From: Acuticoccus kalidii
GTDB taxonomy: Bacteria > Pseudomonadota > Alphaproteobacteria > Rhizobiales > Amorphaceae
NCBI RefSeq assembly: GCF_021556395.1
Contig: NZ_JAKGCS010000006.1
Span: 62,001-126,000 of the forward strand
Direction of reading: 5' to 3'
DNA: 64,000 nucleotides
In this document: in pieces, positions 53,026 to 64,000 of the stretch
How positions within the stretch are numbered: the first letter of the stretch is position 1
Layout of the letters: the number at the start of each line of letters is the position of its first letter
The notes under the pieces: model-generated
Databases searched by the model: none
What the model saw: the letters and a program-made list of their open reading frames with translations, nothing else
What the model was told of the DNA's origin: nothing
Program-made: the position numbers and the translations under genes

Positions 53026-53151
53026 CCCGCCCCGCAGGATGATCCTTCGAACGAACTGATTTCGCTCGCTGGCCGCGGGGTGCGGCTCGTCTCTTGCCAA
53101 TGCAACTCAAGGGTGTTTATGCTACCTTAGGTGTTGCGGCGAGGGAAGGAC

Positions 53152-55308
53152 ATGGTGGACTTTTCGTTCGGAGGTCGGTTTCGCCGGCGCTCACGCCCGA
53201 AGCACCCGGTCGGGACCGGCTCGGAGGCAGCCCGGCCGCTGCTGTCACGCCCCTTGGGCAGCTTGAGGTCGAGTTGGGGCGGCGGCGTTTTCTTTCGCCG
53301 CAAGGCCGCCCGGGATCCGGGTGAGGCGCTGCGCGATCCGCGCCAGGCCGCGATTGTGTTCGGCCTGCGCAATCAACGTCCGCGGGCCACCATGCCGAAG
53401 GCCGATGCGCGCCTCGCGGCGCTCCTCGACCGCGCCGCGCCGGATGAATGTCTGAACGCCGCCTTCGTGCTGCGGTGGGGCCGCCCGTCGGAGATCGCGG
53501 CTGCCGGCACCTCGTCGGAGCCCGTCAGACCCCCGTTCCGCGACACCGATTATTATGAGGCGCTCGCCCATTGGCTCGGTTGCCGGTTCGACCATGGCCA
53601 CACATTGAGCGAGCTCGTTCGCGATTCGCGGGCCGAATCGGTGTTCTGCGAGGATGGTGCGATCCTGCGCTTCCTCGTCGACGGGCGGCAGGTCGTGGCG
53701 ATCGCGCCATCGCCGACGTGGCTGCCGTCGCTCGCAAGCCTCGTCAGCCGCTGTCCGAAGGCCGCCGACCGGATCATCATCGTGCCTCCGCATGCGATCG
53801 ACGCCGCGGTGGGCGAGGAGAGGCCGCGGATCAGCGCCGGCCGGCTCGATCCGATCCATGAGATCCCCGCCATCGCGCTCGCCGACCGCGTGGTGACTCG
53901 GCCGCAGGTGCTGGCCTTCGGCCTCGCGCTCGCCGCCTTCGCCGTCGTCGTCGCGGTGGCGCCGTTCGTGATGCTCGGTTTGCTCTTCGTCACGACGACA
54001 GCGATCCTCCTCGCCTATGCGGCGAGCCGGGGTCTCGCGCTCATGCGGCCCGATCGGCCGCGCCAGCCCCGCCGGCGCCTGAAAGCGTCCGAGCTTCCCG
54101 AATATTCGATTCTCGTCCCGCTTTTCCGCGAAGGCGAGGGGATCGCCCATCTCGTGCGCGCCCTCCGCCGCCTCGACTACCCACCCGACAAGCTCGACAT
54201 CCAGTTCCTCGTCGAAGCCGACGACGCGATCACCCGCCGCGCCGTGATGCGCCATGCGCACGATCTGTCGTGCCGGATGACCATCGTTCCCCCAGGCTCA
54301 CCGCAGACAAAGCCGCGCGCGCTCAATGTCGGTCTGCGTCAGGCCCGCGGCAGCCTCGTGACGATCTATGATGCGGAGGATCGGCCCGAGCTCGATCAGC
54401 TCCGCGTCGCCGCCGAGACCTTCGCCGCCGCCGCGCCCGACATGGCCGCGCTGCAAGCCAGACTGTCGATCGATCATGCGGGCGACACCTGGCTGACGCA
54501 GATGTTCGCCATCGAATATGCGTGCCTCTTCGACCACGTGATGCCGATGGTCGCGGGCGAGGAGCGGATTCTGCTCCTCGGCGGGACGTCGAACCATTTT
54601 CGGACCGACGCCTTGATCCGCGTCGGCGGGTGGGATCCCTACAACGTCACCGAAGACGCCGACCTCGCGATCCGTCTGCGGCGCGGTGGATACCGCATCG
54701 CGATGATCGAATCGCGGACCTACGAGGAAGCGCCGATCAGTGTCGATGCCTGGCTGAAGCAGCGCTCACGCTGGTTCAAGGGCTATATGCAGACGTGGCT
54801 CGTGCACAACCGCCGGCCACTGGTCTTGCTCCGGGAGCTCGGCTGGGCCGACACGAGCCTCGTCCATCTGTTCATCATCGGCGCTTTGACGGCGGCGCTC
54901 GCCCACCTCGTCTTCGTGGGGCAGCTCGTCCTCGCGCTGACCGGCCTCGCGCCGCTTCTCGCCGGCCCGTCCGGCGCGCTCACGGCCATCCAACTCGTCA
55001 GCGTGCTCTTCGGCTATGGGGCGAGTTTTGCGCTTGGCGCCGTCAGCATCCAGTCGCGGCGGGGCGAGCGGATCAGTGTCTGGGCGGTGCTATGGTTTCC
55101 GCTCTATTGGATCCTGATGGGGGCGGCCGTTCTCCTGGCGCTGCACGACCTCATCCGCTCTCCTCATTATTGGCGCAAGACGATGCACGGTATCGCCTCG
55201 CGTCCGGCCCGCCTACGGGCCCGCCCCGTGCCCCTCGCCGGCCATCCGACGAAGCGCGCGCCAACGCCGACCGGGGAGAGGCGATCGACCTCGTCGGATC
55301 GTGCCTGA
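53152..55308 (+). CDS. Membrane glycosyltransferase family 2 (BcsA-like) with N-terminal soluble domain
   Basis: 718-residue processive-type GT2 enzyme. The first 240 residues form a soluble domain of unknown role. Two membrane helices follow (about 262-310), then the GT2 catalytic domain (YSILVPLFREGEGIAHLVRALRRLDYP; first acidic motif VEADD; YDAED as DxD; TEDADLAIRL; QRSRWFKGYMQTW, the Q/RxxRW motif), and three to four more helices. It probably makes an exopolysaccharide or other glycan; no partner genes such as a hydrolase or PilZ protein lie nearby. The ATG follows GGGAAGGAC. Confidence 0.88.
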   Translation: MVDFSFGGRFRRRSRPKHPVGTGSEAARPLLSRPLGSLRSSWGGGVFFRRKAARDPGEALRDPRQAAIVFGLRNQRPRATMPKADARLAALLDRAAPDECLNAAFVLRWGRPSEIAAAGTSSEPVRPPFRDTDYYEALAHWLGCRFDHGHTLSELVRDSRAESVFCEDGAILRFLVDGRQVVAIAPSPTWLPSLASLVSRCPKAADRIIIVPPHAIDAAVGEERPRISAGRLDPIHEIPAIALADRVVTRPQVLAFGLALAAFAVVVAVAPFVMLGLLFVTTTAILLAYAASRGLALMRPDRPRQPRRRLKASELPEYSILVPLFREGEGIAHLVRALRRLDYPPDKLDIQFLVEADDAITRRAVMRHAHDLSCRMTIVPPGSPQTKPRALNVGLRQARGSLVTIYDAEDRPELDQLRVAAETFAAAAPDMAALQARLSIDHAGDTWLTQMFAIEYACLFDHVMPMVAGEERILLLGGTSNHFRTDALIRVGGWDPYNVTEDADLAIRLRRGGYRIAMIESRTYEEAPISVDAWLKQRSRWFKGYMQTWLVHNRRPLVLLRELGWADTSLVHLFIIGALTAALAHLVFVGQLVLALTGLAPLLAGPSGALTAIQLVSVLFGYGASFALGAVSIQSRRGERISVWAVLWFPLYWILMGAAVLLALHDLIRSPHYWRKTMHGIASRPARLRARPVPLAGHPTKRAPTPTGERRSTSSDRA

Positions 55309-55869
55309 TCCGGCGCGGCTCGCCGCCTGCCATCTGCGCTTCGGCGGGCCAGATCGGCCGGACAACCACGGCGCGTCGAGATTGGACGCCGGACGAGCGG
55401 TGGATGTGGCGCCAGCGGCGATTGAGCCTGCTCGCAGTCGCAGCCGCAGCCCGTGCCGAGGCCGAGACCTGGCCCGAGGAGCGACTGTTTCGACGGCTCG
55501 AAACCGGGGCGTAGCTGCGCAAAAGGCAAGTTTGGCTGCTCGACCTTGGGCAGGTCACTGGTGCTCGGGAGGTGATCGCGGCGTTCGTGTGGTTCGACCT
55601 CCTCCCCCTCGAAGCGCCATGGCGAGGCCCGAGCTTCAGGGGCTACGAGAAGGATCGGGGCGTGATTGAAAGGAGGTCGATTGTTTGGCGCCGCTTGTCC
55701 GAGCGGGATCGGATAAGCGGCGCCAGCATAAAGCAGGGTGACGCGCGCCATGGCACAAGCGTGGAAGCACAGCGTGTTTCGTTCTGATTAGCGGGTGCGC
55801 CACGCACGAAGATGCCCCCTGCCTAGGAGACGCGGCCAGGTCCGAGTGTGGCCGGGCGGCTTTTCCGCC
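55309..55869. other. Non-coding region after the GT2 gene with inverted repeat and short leader-like frames
   Basis: No convincing gene over about 560 bases. The frame that overlaps the GT2 end continues to 55514 with an acidic/Arg-rich tail (RRDWTPDERWMWRQRRLSLLAVAAAARAEAETW), but it has no start signal of its own. Two mini-frames deserve note: TTG at 55681, 5-6 bases after AAAGGAGG, giving about 11 codons inside an inverted repeat; and ATG at 55750 giving 13 codons (MAQAWKHSVFRSD). Confidence 0.45.
55686..55725. repeat. 17-bp-stem inverted repeat
   Basis: TGGCGCCGCTTGTCCGA (55686-55702) and TCGGATAAGCGGCGCCA (55709-55725) are inverted copies with one mismatch, which would be a G-U pair in RNA, around a 6-base loop GCGGGA. 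It is not followed by T on the plus strand. It could be a transcription terminator without U tract, an RNA structure or a cruciform site. Confidence 0.85.
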
Positions 55870-56175
55870 CTCGTGGCCTCGCCGTGCTCGTGGCCTCGCC
55901 ATGCTCGTGACCTCGCCGTGCTCGTGACCTCGCCGTGCTCGTGGCCTCGCCATGCTCGTGACCTCGCCGTGCTCGTGGCCTCGCCGTGCTCGTGGCCTCG
56001 CCGTGCTCGTGGCCTCGCCGTGCTCGTGGCCTCGCCGTGCTCGTGGCCTCGCCGTGCTCGTGACCTCGCCGTACTCGTGGCCTCGCCGTGCTCGTGACCT
56101 CGCCATGCTCGTGGCCTCGCCATGCTCGTGGCCTCGCCGTGCCCGCGGCCTCGCCATCCTCGCGGCCTAGCCGAA
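55870..56175. repeat. Tandem array of about 18 copies of a 17-bp repeat
   Basis: Head-to-tail copies of CTCGTGGCCTCGCCGTG without spacers. Units 1-16 (55870-56141) match the consensus with at most two changes; units 17 and 18 (56142-56175) are degenerate and end 23 bases before the usp stop codon. All ten changes in units 1-16 are G to A on this strand, at unit positions 7, 15 and 17. Because 17 is not a multiple of 3, every frame reads a 17-residue periodic Arg/His-rich or Ser/Cys/Trp-rich peptide; these are not credible proteins. There are no spacers, so it is not CRISPR. Confidence 0.97.
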
Positions 56176-56198
56176 CCCGCCCCCTCCCGGCCGCGACG

Positions 56199-57074
56199 TC
56201 AGTGGGCGAAGACGATCGGCATCTCGGCTTCCTCCATCATGTAGGAGGTGAAACCGCCCACCAGCATTTCGCGGAACACGCTGTGTCCGTAGGCGCCCAT
56301 GATCATGAAATCGCAGCCGCGGGCGCGCACTTCGTTGAGGACGGCCTCGGCGGCGCTCCCTCCATCGCGCGCCACGGCGGCGATCTGGGCCTTCACCCCG
56401 TGGCGGGCGAGATAGTCCATCACGACGGTGTTCTCGTGCGCGTCGAGCGGGCGGTTGCGCTCCGTCGCGACGAGGACGTGAACCTCGTCTGCGTTCACCA
56501 TCAGATCGCGCGCCGAGAGCACCGCGCGGATCGCCTCCGGACTGTCGTTCCAGGCGAGGGCGCATTTGCGGCCCATCCATGCCGGCTCCCCGTCCGGCTT
56601 CGGCCGCACCACGAGGAGCGGCCGGCCGGTCGAGAAGAGGGCGAGCCCGGTGATCGAATTGTCGGAAACGTCGGACGAGCCTTTTTGCGCGCCGATCACC
56701 AGGAGATCGCAGAGGCTCATCTCGCGCACGAGATCGCCGTTCGTGCGATTTTCGAGAACGAGGAAGGTGCCGGACGCCTCGCCGATCACCGGCGCCGCCT
56801 CGTTGTAGGGAAGGCCGTGCTTACGGCAAAGACGCTCCGACATTTCGCGCGCATGCTTGAGGCGCGCTTCGGCCTGCTTCTCGACGATGCCGTCCCAGCC
56901 GCCGCCGACCATGATCGCTTCGCCGAAAAAGCCGGAATAGGAATAAACCGGATACGACACGTGGATGAGGCGAAGCTCGGCCGCGTTCGTTTGGGCGAGC
57001 TTGATGGCGGCCTCCACCGCCGTCTCTTCGTGCTCGAATCCGATCACGAGACAAACGATCGATTTGGTGGCCAT
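56199..57074 (-). CDS. Universal stress protein with two Usp domains
   Basis: 291-residue UspA-family protein, two tandem Usp domains. The first (about 1-150) has KSIVCLVIGFEHEETAVEAAIKLA and LLVIGAQKG. The second (150-291) has CALAWNDSPEAIRAVLSA and the ATP-binding motif MGAYGHSVFREMLVGGFT (G-x2-G-x9-G-type). The first domain lacks the full glycine motif. The start follows GGAGCGAG at about 8-bp spacing. It diverges from the P-type ATPase across a region containing an FNR/FixK box, consistent with oxygen-limitation control. Confidence 0.92.
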   Translation of the reverse strand: MATKSIVCLVIGFEHEETAVEAAIKLAQTNAAELRLIHVSYPVYSYSGFFGEAIMVGGGWDGIVEKQAEARLKHAREMSERLCRKHGLPYNEAAPVIGEASGTFLVLENRTNGDLVREMSLCDLLVIGAQKGSSDVSDNSITGLALFSTGRPLLVVRPKPDGEPAWMGRKCALAWNDSPEAIRAVLSARDLMVNADEVHVLVATERNRPLDAHENTVVMDYLARHGVKAQIAAVARDGGSAAEAVLNEVRARGCDFMIMGAYGHSVFREMLVGGFTSYMMEEAEMPIVFAH

Positions 57075-57140
57075 AGATCTCGCTCCAATCTTCGCGGCGG
57101 GCCGGGCGCGGGAGGGTGCGCCAACTCGCGCCATGGCGTG

Positions 57141-57188
57141 TTGATCCTGGTCAACACCTCATCCGAGCCTGTCACTATAGACACGCAA
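57141..57188 (+). promoter_or_regulatory. FNR/FixK box with -10 element, promoter of the P-type ATPase (and possibly usp)
   Basis: TTGAT-CCTG-GTCAA at 57141-57154 fits the FNR/FixK consensus TTGAY-N4-RTCAA exactly. A TATAGA at 57176-57181 would place the start site near 57188, so the box centre lies about 41 bp upstream, the class II position of FNR-type activators. It is 137 bases before the ATPase ATG. The box may also serve the divergent usp gene, whose ATG is 67 bases away, but I see no -10 on that side. Confidence 0.7.
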
Positions 57189-57325
57189 GATGACAGGTTG
57201 GAGTCGGATCTCGATCGCCCCTCTCCCCGATCGGGGCATGCGGCGTTCCTCCCACTTTCCGATCGTTGCGCCATCGGGGCCGACCCGTTCGCGTCGCCCC
57301 CGTTCGCCCAGATGAGGAACGCCTC

Positions 57326-60067
57326 ATGACGACCCTGCCCGCGACATCCACCTCGGAGGCGAACCGCGGCGATAGGCGCACCGCCTGGCATTCGATCGAC
57401 GCGGCGACCGTGCTCGACGATCTCGCGACTTCGCCGCGCGGCCTCACCGCGGCCGAGGTCGAGACCCGGCGCCGCCGCTATGGGCCGAACGCCTTGCCCG
57501 AGACCGCGCGGCGGAGCCGCCTCGCGCGCCTCGCGGCCCAGTTCAACAACGTCCTCATCTATGTGCTTCTCGGCGCCGCGTTCGTGACGCTGCTCCTCGG
57601 GCACGTCACCGACATGGTGGTGATCCTCGCCGTGGTGCTGCTCAATGCGGCGATCGGCTACTGGCAGGAAGGGCGCGCCGAAGACGCGCTGGCCGCCGTG
57701 CGCGGCATGCTGTCGGAGACGGCGGAGGTCATTCGCGCGGGGGAGCGGTCCACCGTCGCCGCGGCCGATCTCGTTCCCGGCGACATCGTTCATTTGGAGC
57801 CGGGCTCGCGCGTTCCCGCCGATCTGCGCATCATCGAGGCGCGCGGCCTGACGACGCAGGAAGCCGCGCTCACCGGCGAGGCGATGACCGTCGTCAAATC
57901 GGTCCCGCCGGTCGCCGAGGACGCGCCGCTCGGCGACCGCACCTCGCTCGCCTTCTCCGGGACGATGGTGACGTCGGGCCGGGGCACGGGCGTCGTCGTC
58001 GCCACCGGCCAGGCGGCGGAAATCGGCCGCATCGGTGCGATGCTCGGCGATATCGAAGAGCTGTCGACCCCGCTCCTCGACCAGATCAACCGCTTCGCGA
58101 AGTGGCTGACCATGGTGATCCTCTCGGTCAGCGCGGTGGTCTTTTTGGTCGCCGTCTTCCTGCGCGACTATCCGCTCGACGAAGGGTTCATGGCGATGGT
58201 CGGCATGGCCGTCGCGGCGATCCCGGAGGGGCTGCCCGCGGTGATCACGATCACGATGGCGCTCGGCGTGCAGCGGATGGCGAACCGGAACGCGACGGTG
58301 CGCCGCCTCACCGCGGTCGAGACGCTCGGCGCCGTTTCCGTGATCTGCACCGACAAGACCGGCACCCTCACCATGAACGAGATGGTGGCGCGCTCGCTCG
58401 TCACCCACCCGCTCGCGCCGCCGACCGAGGTGAGCGGTACCGGATACGCCCCCGAAGGCACGATCGAGGGCGACGAGACGCCGGCGCGCGCCCGGCTGAT
58501 CCGCGCCGGCCTCCTCTGCAACGACGCGCATCTGCGCCAAGAGGGGGACGGCCGATGGGAGGTCGCCGGCGATCCGCTGGAGGGGGCGCTCGTCTCCCTC
58601 GCGCGGAAAGCGGGGCTCGATCCGGCGCGCGCCCGTGCGGCGATGCCCCGGCTCGACGAGGTGCCCTTCGATGCGGCGAACCGCTATATGGCGACGCTGA
58701 ATCGCACCGAGGACGGCAATGTCGTTCTCCTCAAGGGCGCGCTCGACCAGCTTCTGACGATGTGCGCCGATCAGGCGGCCGCAGACGGGGCGGAGCCGCT
58801 CGACGCGAACGCCTGGCTGTCCCGCATGGAGACGCTCGCCGCGGACGGGCAGCGCGTCCTCGCCTTCGCCGAAAAGCGCGTCGGCGCCGACGAGGCGATC
58901 GCGGAGGGCGCGATGAAGGACGGGTTCACGCTCCTCGGCATCGTCGGCTTCACCGACCCGCCCCGACCCGAGGCGATCGTCGCGGCGCGTGATGCGCTGC
59001 GCGCCGGCGTCGCCGTCAAGATGATCACCGGCGACCATGCCGCGACGGCGCTCGCGATCGCCGACCAGCTCGGCATCGACATCACGGCCGGCGCGCTCAC
59101 CGGCCGTGAGATCGACGAGATGGACGACCAGCATTTGCGCGGCAAAGCGGGCAAGGTCGACGTGTTCGCCCGCGCCGCGCCCGAGCACAAGCTGCGCCTC
59201 GTCGAGGCGTTGCAGGCGGAGGGCAACGTCGTCGTGATGACGGGTGACGGGGTGAACGACGCGCCGGCGCTGAAGCGCGCCGATGTCGGCGTCGCGATGG
59301 GCATCACCGGCACCGATGCGGCCAAGGACGCCTCGCGCGTCGTGCTCGCGGACGACAATTTCGCCACCATCGTCGCCGCGGTGCGCGAGGGGCGCGCGAT
59401 CTACGACAATATCAAGAAGGTGATCGCCTGGACGCTGCCGACCAATGGCGGCGAATCGCTCGTGATCACCGGGGCAATTCTCGCCGGGGTGATCCTGCCG
59501 ATCACCGCTTTGCAGATCCTCTGGATCAATCTCGTGACGGCCATCGCGCTCGGCCTGACGCTCGCGTTCGAGCCGCCGGAGGAGACGATCATGGAGCGCC
59601 CGCCCCGGGCGCGTAATGCCGCGCTTCTCGATGCGGAGATGATCTGGCGCGTGGTCTTCGTCTCGGTCCTGATGGCGCTCGGCACGTTCGGGGTCTTCTT
59701 CCTGGCGATCGGGCGGGGAGATGATGTCGCCTATGCGCGCACGCTCGCCGTGAACGTGATCGTGGTGATGGAGATCTTCTATCTCTTCTCGGTGCGCTAT
59801 CTGCACCTCACCTCGCTCACCTTCGTCGGGGTCGTCGGCACACGGGCGGTGCTCATCGGTGTCGCGCTGACGACCGCCTTGCAATTCGCCTTCACCTACG
59901 TCCCGTTCTTGCAGCGGGTGTTCGATTCCCGGCCGGTCGTGTTCGCCGACGGGCTCCTCGTCGTCGGGATCGGCGTTGCGCTGTTGCTGGTGCTGGAGGT
60001 CGAAAAGTTCGTCCGGCGGTCCCTCGGCCGCCGGATCGGTCGGCGTGGTGCCACCCGCCCGGCCTGA
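57326..60067 (+). CDS. Cation-transporting P-type ATPase (P2 type, PacL/Ca2+-ATPase-like)
   Basis: Inner-membrane ion pump, 913 residues, with 10 helices. The actuator domain has TGEAMTV (dephosphorylation loop, usually TGES or TGE). The phosphorylation site is D343 in [11 protein letters not shown], the nucleotide domain has KGALDQLL, and the hinge is [21 protein letters not shown]. The helix-4 motif [10 protein letters not shown] is typical of P2 (Ca2+, Na+/K+, H+) pumps, not of heavy-metal P1B pumps. The exact cation is not determined. The ATG follows GAGGAACGCC. It converges on the alcohol dehydrogenase with a 22-base gap and is driven by the FNR-type promoter. Confidence 0.93.
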
Positions 60068-60089
60068 GGCCGTGCGGGTGAACGCTCCG

Positions 60090-61166
60090 TCAGGGGGTGA
60101 TCGCCACCTTGAGGACGCCATCGCGCTGGTTGGCGAACAGATCGTAGGCGTCTTCGATCTCGTCGAGCTTGAAACGGTGGGTGACGAGGGCGCGTGTGTC
60201 GAGCCGGTCGGAGGCGATCACGTCCATCAGCCGGCGCATCCGCTCCTTGCCGCCGGGACAGAGCGTCGTCACGATCTTGTTGTCGCCCAGGCCGGCATGG
60301 AACGCGCCGAGCGGGATCGTGAGATCGTCCGAATAGACGCCGAGCGAGGAGAGCGTACCGCCCGGGCGCAGGATCCTGAGGGCGGCCTCGAACGTCGCCT
60401 GCCGTCCCAGCGCCTCGATCGACACGTCGACCCCGCGCCCGCCGGTGAGGCCCATGATCGCCTCGACGGGGTCGACCTTCGAGAAGTCGACGACATGGTC
60501 CGCGCCCATCGTGCGGGCGATCTCCTGACGGGCCGGGACGGCTTCGACGGCGATGATGGTGCTCGCCCCCATCAGCCGCGCGCCGGCCGTGGCACACAGC
60601 CCGATCGGCCCCTGCGCGAACACGGCGACCGTGTCGCCGATCTTCACGGCGCCGCTCTCCGCGCCGGAAAAGCCCGTCGACATGATGTCGGGGCACATCA
60701 GGACCTGCTCGTCCTCGAGACCGTCCGGGATCGGAGCAAGGTTCGTCATCGCGTCCGGGACGAGGAGATATTCGGCCTGCGCGCCGTCGATGGTGTTGCC
60801 GAAGCGCCAGCCGCCGAGCGGTTTGAAGCCGTGCGGGGTGTCGGGGCCGTCCTGCGAGTGACAGCCGCACAGGCAGGCGTTCGAGTACCCGCTCGGGGTG
60901 ATCGCCCCGGCGATGACGCGCTGACCTTCGGTGTAGCCGCGCACCGCCGAGCCGAGCTTCTCGATGATCCCGACCGGCTCATGACCGATCGTGAGCCCGC
61001 GCTCGACGGGATATTCCCCCTTCAGAATATGGATGTCGGTGCCGCAAATGGTGGTGGTCGTGATGCGGATCAGCGCGTCGAGCGGCCCCACGTCCGGGAT
61101 CGGCTTTTCGTCGAGGACGATCCGGTTGGTGTCGACGAAGATGGCGGCTTTCATCGTTTTCGGCAT
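60090..61166 (-). CDS. Zinc-dependent alcohol dehydrogenase (MDR family)
   Basis: 358-residue medium-chain dehydrogenase. KAAIFVDTNRIVLDEKPIP starts the catalytic domain. ICGTDIHILKGEYPVERGLTIGHEPVGIIEKLG contains the catalytic zinc ligands (Cys, His-Glu). YSNACLCGCHSQ, RFGNTIDGAQAEYLLVPDAM and VLMCPDIMSTGFSGAE are typical of the Thermoanaerobacter brockii-like NADP alcohol dehydrogenase group. The cofactor fold is VAVFAQGPIGLCATAGARLMG (GxGPIG-like). The C-terminus reads RFKLDEIEDAYDLFANQRDGVLKVAI. The start follows GGGGGAGGTC. It diverges from the beta-phosphoglucomutase gene with an FNR-type box between. Substrate could be isopropanol, ethanol or butanol. Confidence 0.92.
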   Translation of the reverse strand: MPKTMKAAIFVDTNRIVLDEKPIPDVGPLDALIRITTTTICGTDIHILKGEYPVERGLTIGHEPVGIIEKLGSAVRGYTEGQRVIAGAITPSGYSNACLCGCHSQDGPDTPHGFKPLGGWRFGNTIDGAQAEYLLVPDAMTNLAPIPDGLEDEQVLMCPDIMSTGFSGAESGAVKIGDTVAVFAQGPIGLCATAGARLMGASTIIAVEAVPARQEIARTMGADHVVDFSKVDPVEAIMGLTGGRGVDVSIEALGRQATFEAALRILRPGGTLSSLGVYSDDLTIPLGAFHAGLGDNKIVTTLCPGGKERMRRLMDVIASDRLDTRALVTHRFKLDEIEDAYDLFANQRDGVLKVAITP

Positions 61167-61229
61167 GTGACCTCCCCCAGGCGGGCAATATGTTCGCCGG
61201 AAACTTTGCCGATCCCGGAGCGAATTTGT

Positions 61230-61243
61230 TTGATGGACATCAA
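61230..61243. promoter_or_regulatory. FNR/FixK box between alcohol dehydrogenase and beta-phosphoglucomutase genes
   Basis: TTGAT-GGAC-ATCAA, an exact match to the palindromic FNR/Anr consensus TTGAT-N4-ATCAA. It lies 63 bases from the dehydrogenase ATG (minus strand) and 110 bases from the preferred beta-phosphoglucomutase ATG. No clear -10 is visible on either side, so the direction is undetermined; it could regulate both. Confidence 0.75.
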
Positions 61244-61353
61244 CGATGCGTCGCGTCGTTTCGTCCATCGGTCGCGCTCGCCGCGCCAGGGCGGGACCCT
61301 AAGTCCTGAAAAACCGCACAATGTCTGTGCGGGGGCTCGGTCATGAGCGTGCG

Positions 61354-62079
61354 ATGAGCGACATTACCCTCGACAGGTCGCGTTATGATGGCGCGGTGTT
61401 CGATATGGACGGCGTGATCACGACGACGGTCGGCGTGCACGAAGCGGCATGGCGCCGCGTGTTCGAGCCGGCGCTCGCCGCGCATGGCGATCCGCTCCCC
61501 TTCACCCACGCCGATTATCGCGCCCATGTCGACGGAAAGGCGCGCGCGGTGGGCGTGCGCGATTTCTTCGCCGCGAGGAGGATCAGCCTCGACGAGGCGG
61601 AGATCGCGCGGATCGCGGCCGCGAAGAACGAGGCCTTTCTCGCCGCGCTGGAGGCGACCGGCGTCGCCCCGCTCGACGGGGTGGTGCCGCTCCTGCGCGC
61701 CCTCCGCGCTGCGGAGATGAAGGTCGGCCTGTTCTCGGCGAGCCGGAATGCGCGCCACGTCCTCACCACCGCCGGCGTTCTCGGCCTCTTCGACGCGATC
61801 GTCGACGGGGTCGTCGCCGCCGAAGAGGGGCTTCGGAGCAAGCCCGCGCCGGATCTGCCCCTCGCGCTCGCCGCCCGGCTCGCCCTCCGCCCGGACCGGA
61901 CGGTTCTCTTCGAGGATGCCGTCGCGGGGATCGAAGCGGGTCGCGCGGGCGGTTTCGCCCTCGTCGTCGGCGTCGCCAATGCCGAGGATGCGCCGCGCCT
62001 TCGCGCCGCGGGCGCGCATACGATCATCGCGGCGCTGTCAGAAGCGCACCTCGACCGATCCGAGGAGATCAACATTTGA
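61354..62079 (+). CDS. Beta-phosphoglucomutase-like HAD hydrolase
   Basis: HAD-superfamily protein of about 241 residues. It has the nucleophile motif VFDMDGVI (D17, D19), the cap domain, motif II VGLFSASRNARHVL, the motif III lysine in SKPAPDL and motif IV VLFEDAVAGIEAG. In this family beta-phosphoglucomutase converts beta-glucose 1-phosphate to glucose 6-phosphate, the natural partner of an inverting GH65 phosphorylase, and a GH65 gene follows with overlapping codons. The start is uncertain: ATG at 61321 or 61354, neither with a good ribosome site. Confidence 0.88.
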   Translation: MSDITLDRSRYDGAVFDMDGVITTTVGVHEAAWRRVFEPALAAHGDPLPFTHADYRAHVDGKARAVGVRDFFAARRISLDEAEIARIAAAKNEAFLAALEATGVAPLDGVVPLLRALRAAEMKVGLFSASRNARHVLTTAGVLGLFDAIVDGVVAAEEGLRSKPAPDLPLALAARLALRPDRTVLFEDAVAGIEAGRAGGFALVVGVANAEDAPRLRAAGAHTIIAALSEAHLDRSEEINI

Positions 62080-64000
62080 CCTGGACGCTGACCTACGAGG
62101 GTTACGACCCTCAGACCGCCGGATTGCGCGAAGCGCTCTGCACGCTCGGCAATGGCCGCTTCGCGACGCGCGGCGCCTTTCTCGATGTCGATGCGGACGG
62201 AACGCATTATCCGGGGACCTATCTCGCCGGCGGCTACGATCGCCTGACGACCGAGATCGCCGGCCGCAGCGTCGAGAACGAGGATCTCGTCAATTGGCCG
62301 AACTGGCTGCCGCTCCGCTTGTCGATCGACGGCGAGGCGGAGCTTGCGCCGGGCCGCGAGACGATGATCCGGCACACCCAATCGCTCGACATGAAAGCCG
62401 GCGTGCTCCGGCGCGAAAGCGAGATCAAGGACGCCGCGGGCCGCATCACGCGCCTTGCTGAGGAGCGGATCGTCAGCATGAGCGCGCCGCATCTCGCGGC
62501 CGTGTCGCTCTCGATCACGCCGGTCAACTGGTCGGGCACGCTGCGCCTGCGCTCCTTCATCGATGGGTCGGTCACGAATTGCGGCGTCAAGCGTTATCGC
62601 GACCTCGCCGGCAAGCATCTCGCGGTGGTCGATGCCGACCACACGGAGGCTCATGTCGCGCGGCTCACCTGCCGCACGGTCCAATCGGCCATCGAGGCGA
62701 CGATCGCGGCGCGCACGTCGCTCTTCAACGCCCACGAGAGCGCGCCGGCCGAGCCCTATATTGACGGCGAGATGGTGGGCACGGTCTTCTCGCTGGCGGC
62801 GCGGGAAGGCGCCACGATCCGCGCCGAGAAGACGGTCGCCTTCGTCACCGTGCGCGACTCGGCGATCGCCTCGCCGCTTCTCGCCGCGACCGAGGCCGTC
62901 ACCACCGCGCCGGACTTCGGCCGCCTCCTCGCCGATCATGAACGCGCTTGGGCGACGCTGTGGGCCGACTTCGACATCTCGGTCGAGGACGGGGCGAGCC
63001 AGGCGCAGCTCCATCTGCGCCTTCACCTCTTCCATCTCCTCCAGACGCTGTCGCCCCACACCGCCGAGCGGGACGTCGGCGCGCCGGCGCGGGGGTGGCA
63101 TGGCGAGGCCTATCGGGGCCACATTTTCTGGGACGAGATCTTCATCTTCCGCGTCCTCAATCTGCGCGCCCCGCGGCTGACGCGCGGTCTTCTGCGCTAT
63201 CGCTATCGACGGCTCGACGAGGCGCGCAAGCTCGCCGCCGCGCACGGCCTCAAGGGGGCGATGTACCCCTGGCAGAGCGCGTCGAGCGGGCGCGAGGAGA
63301 CGCAGACGCTCCACCTCAACCCCAATTCCGGCCGATGGCTCCCTGACTCCACCGATCGCCAGCGCCATGTCGGCCTCGCGATCGCTCACAATGTCTGGCG
63401 CTATTATGAGGCGACGAACGATCTCGACTTCATGATCGAGGGCGGGGCGGAGATGCTGATCGAGATCAGCCGCTTCTTCGCGAGCCTTGCGAAGCACGAT
63501 CCCGAGACCGGCCGCTATCATATTCGCGGCGTGATGGGCCCGGACGAGTTCCACACCGCCTATCCCGACCGGGACGACGAGACCGACCAGGGCATCGACG
63601 ACAACGCCTATACCAACGTCCTCTGCTCCTGGGTGCTGACCCGCACCGTCGACGCCGTCGCCGACCTTCCCGAGCGGCGCAAGCGCCAGCTCGGCGTCTC
63701 GCTCGGCCTCACCCGCGAGGAGGTGAATCACTGGCTCGAGATCGGCTCACACCTTTACGTGCCGTTCCTGTCGAACGGGCTGATCGCGCAATTCGAGGGC
63801 TATGAGGCGCTCGAAGAGCTCGACTGGGATGCGTACCGGGCGAAATACGGCGATATCCACCGGCTCGACCGGATCCTCGAGGCCGAAGGCAAGGCGGTGA
63901 ACCGCTACAAGGTCTCCAAACAGGCCGACGTTCTGATGCTGCCCTTCCTGTTCTCCTCCTCCTCGTTGGCGGAGATCTTCGAGCAGCTCGGCTATGGGTT
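62076..64000 (+). CDS. Glycoside hydrolase family 65 phosphorylase (3' truncated by window edge)
   Basis: GH65 enzyme of the trehalose/maltose/kojibiose phosphorylase type, open to the end of the window (641 codons seen). The N-terminal domain includes ALCTLGNGRFATRGAF and NWPNWLPLRL. The (alpha/alpha)6 catalytic domain has GYRGHIFWDEIF-like sequence, GAMYPWQSASSGREETQT and GVMGPDEFH, with the general acid Glu at about residue 491. The TTG start overlaps the preceding stop codon (TTGA) and has GAGGAG 8 bases upstream, so it is coupled to beta-phosphoglucomutase. Phosphorolysis gives beta-glucose 1-phosphate. The substrate disaccharide cannot be told apart. Confidence 0.9.
   Translation, partial: MTWTLTYEGYDPQTAGLREALCTLGNGRFATRGAFLDVDADGTHYPGTYLAGGYDRLTTEIAGRSVENEDLVNWPNWLPLRLSIDGEAELAPGRETMIRHTQSLDMKAGVLRRESEIKDAAGRITRLAEERIVSMSAPHLAAVSLSITPVNWSGTLRLRSFIDGSVTNCGVKRYRDLAGKHLAVVDADHTEAHVARLTCRTVQSAIEATIAARTSLFNAHESAPAEPYIDGEMVGTVFSLAAREGATIRAEKTVAFVTVRDSAIASPLLAATEAVTTAPDFGRLLADHERAWATLWADFDISVEDGASQAQLHLRLHLFHLLQTLSPHTAERDVGAPARGWHGEAYRGHIFWDEIFIFRVLNLRAPRLTRGLLRYRYRRLDEARKLAAAHGLKGAMYPWQSASSGREETQTLHLNPNSGRWLPDSTDRQRHVGLAIAHNVWRYYEATNDLDFMIEGGAEMLIEISRFFASLAKHDPETGRYHIRGVMGPDEFHTAYPDRDDETDQGIDDNAYTNVLCSWVLTRTVDAVADLPERRKRQLGVSLGLTREEVNHWLEIGSHLYVPFLSNGLIAQFEGYEALEELDWDAYRAKYGDIHRLDRILEAEGKAVNRYKVSKQADVLMLPFLFSSSSLAEIFEQLGYG

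Follow-up and report, generated by a model that had tools for sequence, protein, structure and literature searches.

The window analyzed here is a stretch of 64,000 nucleotides from the genome of Acuticoccus kalidii. Near its right end, a family-2 glycosyltransferase gene and a universal stress protein gene, herein referred to as usp, are located in convergent orientation and separated by a spacer that holds a tandem array with a 17-bp unit (Table 1). The usp stop codon occupies positions 56199-56201 on the minus strand, 25 bp from the end of the array. Thus, the array lies between the ends of two genes and is not near the promoter of either neighbor. The same spacer contains two inverted repeats, one with 17-bp arms and a shorter one touching the left edge of the array. 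The left half of the spacer (560 bp) has no match elsewhere in the genome except for its own hairpin.

Table 1. Features of the array locus and other tandem arrays of the same genome. Coordinates without a prefix are positions in the window; those with an L prefix refer to other loci of the genome.
Feature	Coordinates	Strand	Description
Family-2 glycosyltransferase	53131..55308	+	Pfam PF13632/PF13641; 3' end towards the array
Convergent spacer	55309..56198	.	890 bp, holds the array
Lineage-specific block (putative insertion), left part	55309..64000	.	~9.2 kb, continues outside the window to ~64529 (L079:2529)
Inverted repeat	55686..55725	.	17-bp arms, strong hairpin without a T-run; fold z -6.9 on +, -6.0 on -
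Short hairpin	55854..55871	.	GGGCGG/CCGCCC, touches the array at its left edge; fold z -3.2 on -, -1.7 on +
17-bp tandem array	55870..56173	.	Consensus CTCGTGGCCTCGCCGTG (plus strand), 17.9 copies
Universal stress protein gene usp	56199..57077	-	Pfam PF00582; ATG at 57077
(CCTCGTG)27.6	L106:12340-12532		Nearly perfect, spacer
(CCGCTGA)13.3	L098:2843-2935		Nearly perfect, spacer
(CTCGCCG)17.9	L098:3110-3234		Nearly perfect, spacer
40-bp unit x10.7	L142:4160-4584		Intergenic
26-bp unit x5.8	L154:11304-11453		Hairpin-forming units, intergenic
Weak 8-bp array			One of the seven qualifying arrays

The array was identified by Tandem Repeats Finder with 91% matches, no indels, and a score of 496; the second-best array in the window scored only 96. 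Its copies are arranged head-to-tail without spacers. Each of copies 1-16 has 0-2 differences from the consensus, and copies 7-11 are identical to one another. Several copies carry one of two G-to-A variants, at unit position 7 or 15, and the usp-proximal copies 17 and 18 have four differences each. The score for self-match at lag 17 was 220, compared with 8-11 in ten first-order Markov copies of the window. The array is therefore confirmed as genuine and far above chance expectation. The initial annotation, made from the sequence alone, had described about 18 such copies ending 23 bases past the usp stop codon; the copy number agrees with these results, and the distance is correct for the array end used there, being 25 bp from the end found by Tandem Repeats Finder.

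The genome is a draft of 36 contigs, and the copy number could be an artefact of assembly. There is only a very slight chance of this, since individual copies can be told apart and perfect stretches within the array reach at most 101 bp, so that 150-base reads could span it and short reads could resolve the array; additionally, a 507-kb contig runs through it.

Open reading frames of 72-173 amino acids span the array. If these were translated, the stop-free unit would form a 51-bp super-repeat encoding a protein with a 17-residue repeat, for example in the minus-strand frame at 55636-56157. However, such openness is expected because the GC-rich unit contains no stop codon in any frame, and a period of 17 is not divisible by three. 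A Pfam search with the frames across the array and the spacer gave no significant match, and in the minus-strand frame the G/A variants alter the encoded residues (A/V, T/M, and P/S). A coding role is hardly credible on these grounds. Anatomy, as far as it goes, supports the initial reading of the array as a non-coding minisatellite and possible variable-number locus: a unit of 17 bp, within the minisatellite range of about 10-100 bp, is repeated head-to-tail in 17.9 near-identical copies in the spacer at 55309-56198, outside of genes.

The array could alternatively be the 3' untranslated part of the usp mRNA, controlling the end or the stability of this transcript either alone or together with the hairpins at 55854-55871 and 55686-55725. 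This would fit the distance of 25 bp between the usp stop codon and the array and, on the usp-sense strand, the small hairpin at the distal end of the array (z -3.2) and the strong one beyond it (z -6.0). Nevertheless, the array itself folds slightly worse than shuffled sequences on this strand (z +0.85), is not conserved, and has no T-run terminator, which was looked for at the array. No family match was found in a search of the whole window against Rfam. On the plus strand, the array folds marginally better than shuffles (z -1.66), 8 of 100 shuffles being at least as good. A function of the array in the usp transcript, which had been suggested as an RNA element at the 3' end of the gene, is thus improbable. 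The strong hairpin at 55686-55725 is possibly the transcription end for either neighboring gene.

The regular spacing of 18 near-identical sites, in which only two positions vary repeatedly, could also indicate a cluster of sites for a DNA-binding protein of decoy, nucleoid, or partition type. Allowing up to two mismatches, the unit has 16 matches in the array and two elsewhere in the genome, compared with five in total for a reversed control pattern; thus, single sites do not form a family in this genome. The unit is not palindromic, the 17-bp phase is off the helical repeat, and no conservation was found in the genus or the order. A clustered binding site, as previously proposed, is very improbable, the unit being neither dispersed in this genome nor conserved in relatives. 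The suggested effect on expression of the neighboring genes likewise found no support, as the array lies between convergent gene ends and not at a promoter. In total, the array has no demonstrated function: all results fit an ordinary, possibly length-variable minisatellite, and nothing tested supports a function.

The search for the unit covered 397 genomes of the order, including the genome analyzed here and one genome per species, and matches were found only in the own genome. A pattern of two units with up to three mismatches was absent from all 396 other genomes, among them all seven congeners. No array is present around the relatives of usp within the genus, and the sites of weak DNA matches in congeners carry either no repeats or just 2-3 copies of units with other periods. 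No exact two-unit match was found in viral contigs. Among plasmids and phages, the only similar DNA apart from weak matches was a short array in an Arthrobacter plasmid. A scan of named genomes based on usp found no relative.

The two flanks of the array differ in their distribution. By its glycosyltransferase, the nearest named relative is Acuticoccus yangtzensis (58% identity), and the other congeners are at a similar distance (47-58%). Orthologs of this gene are present in all genomes of the family that were searched, and pyruvate kinase, the glycosyltransferase, and further upstream genes keep their order in most congeners. In contrast, the genes of the right flank (usp, the cation ATPase, and the dehydrogenase) adjoin the glycosyltransferase in no congener, and the best congener match of usp is just 43% identical. 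In five of the seven congeners, the glycosyltransferase is followed, within about 230 bp or with an overlap, by a relative of the gene that starts here at 64540 (L079:2540); in a sixth (G001), it is followed by a later gene of the region beginning here at this position. Based on this gene order, the simplest view of the stretch from 55309 to about 64529 would be that it was inserted in this lineage; the array is located at the left junction of this stretch. The stretch contains the array, usp, and genes for a cation P-type ATPase, a zinc dehydrogenase, a HAD hydrolase, and a large GH65-like protein, which we take, from its sequence alone, to be a GH65 glycosidase. At the right junction, the last gene of the block lies just 10 bp from the resident gene. 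No mobility gene was recognized within the block and no tRNA was found near it. The locus had been described as repeat-poor core DNA; this description holds for the left flank, which is conserved in the genus, but not for the lineage-specific right flank, and the genome has other arrays. The comparison thus suggests that the usp side of the locus was acquired and is not core. The block sits between the glycosyltransferase and a carboxyltransferase-type gene, which adjoin each other in most congeners.

Arrays with a non-triplet period, at least four copies, and at least 80% matches were searched for in 1.32 Mb of the genome, and seven were found, including the 17-bp array (Table 1). The arrays (CCGCTGA)13.3 and (CTCGCCG)17.9 are located together in one spacer between convergent genes. 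The six arrays other than the 17-bp one lie outside called genes where examined, and the units of all seven are unrelated to one another, which points to an array-making process rather than to a functional sequence. No qualifying arrays were found in 0.92 Mb of five congeners, nor in an additional 0.40 Mb of one of them. With the window left out, since it was chosen for its array, six arrays in 1.26 Mb compare with none in 1.32 Mb of congeners; under equal rates the chance of this is about 0.013, a rough figure because sampling was by contig and not random. These counts could reflect a lineage-specific burst of unrelated intergenic repeat expansions (periods of 7, 17, 26, and 40 bp) that congeners lack. 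Replication or repair would then have changed in this lineage, and the 17-bp array would mark the junction of a stress-gene block that had been acquired. This reading is unlikely. Intergenic tandem arrays may be unusually frequent in this genome, which raises a testable question on repeat stability in the genus.

Loss of mismatch repair was rejected as a cause of the arrays, mutL being intact; 17-base loops are in any case not an expected target of mismatch repair. An sbcD-like match was rejected as a distinguishing cause as well: every congener has such a match, which reaches the family cut-off in just one of them, and it does not set this genome apart. Two minor observations concern the arrays themselves. 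The 26-bp array stands just before a gene resembling polynucleotide phosphorylase, and a degenerate intergenic 25-bp array is located at L114:18717-19396.

The 17-bp array is very probably a neutral intergenic minisatellite and a candidate VNTR locus that arose by slippage or recombination. A homogeneous core, two shared G/A variants, and degenerate terminal copies 17 and 18 are typical of these processes, and the six other unrelated non-triplet arrays in the genome make it one of a class. Within the spacer, where the lineage-specific block has its left junction, a short GC-rich segment may have been duplicated and then expanded through replication slippage or unequal recombination. Point changes would have spread within the inner part of the array, and the outermost copies on the usp side would have decayed. 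The array would be tolerated because no promoter or reading frame is interrupted at this position between convergent gene ends. The array, its position, its restriction to this genome in the sample, the absence of dispersed copies, and the ordinary folding of the usp-sense strand are observed; the mechanism of expansion, the neutrality, and any variation in length between strains are inferred. As a counterpoint to neutrality, the array is near the 3' end of usp and shares its spacer with two hairpins, so that it may affect decay of the usp mRNA. Its plus strand also folds slightly better than shuffles. The array matters little in itself; all that deserves to be retained is the junction of the block and the possibility that this genome has an excess of arrays. 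If strains of the species are isolated, it could become a typing locus.

Intergenic minisatellites are already known in bacteria, and the 17-bp array is a further example, restricted to this genome among those searched. Such loci have been counted among the small variable segments of bacterial genomes (PMC2884548) and are used as VNTR loci for strain typing (MLVA), for instance in Brucella (PMC2674449). The array resembles these loci in having near-identical copies of a short unit located head-to-tail in a spacer; whereas VNTR loci are defined in use by variation in length between strains, the array is known here from one genome. The heptameric G-rich repeats of Xanthomonas and Nostoc are enriched in spacers, many of them within 50 bp of a stop codon (PMC4692102). 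The array shares with them the tandem arrangement in a spacer close to a stop codon, but its unit has 17 rather than 7 bp, it occupies one locus and is not a dispersed family, and its G-rich strand has only two-G runs, lacking the four spaced runs of at least three G of a G-quadruplex repeat.

An array of similar unit was found in the plasmid of Arthrobacter sp. ERGS1:01 (NZ_CP012477.1), where (CGTGGCCTCGACAAGCT)4 occupies positions 340305-340374 (L182:3001-3070). Both arrays have a period of 17, their units share 13 of 17 letters, and the plasmid array is likewise located in a convergent spacer next to a stop codon, that of ilvD. It differs in belonging to another phylum, in having only four copies, and in adjoining inverted copies of part of its unit. 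The likeness is most likely a chance similarity between GC-rich units.
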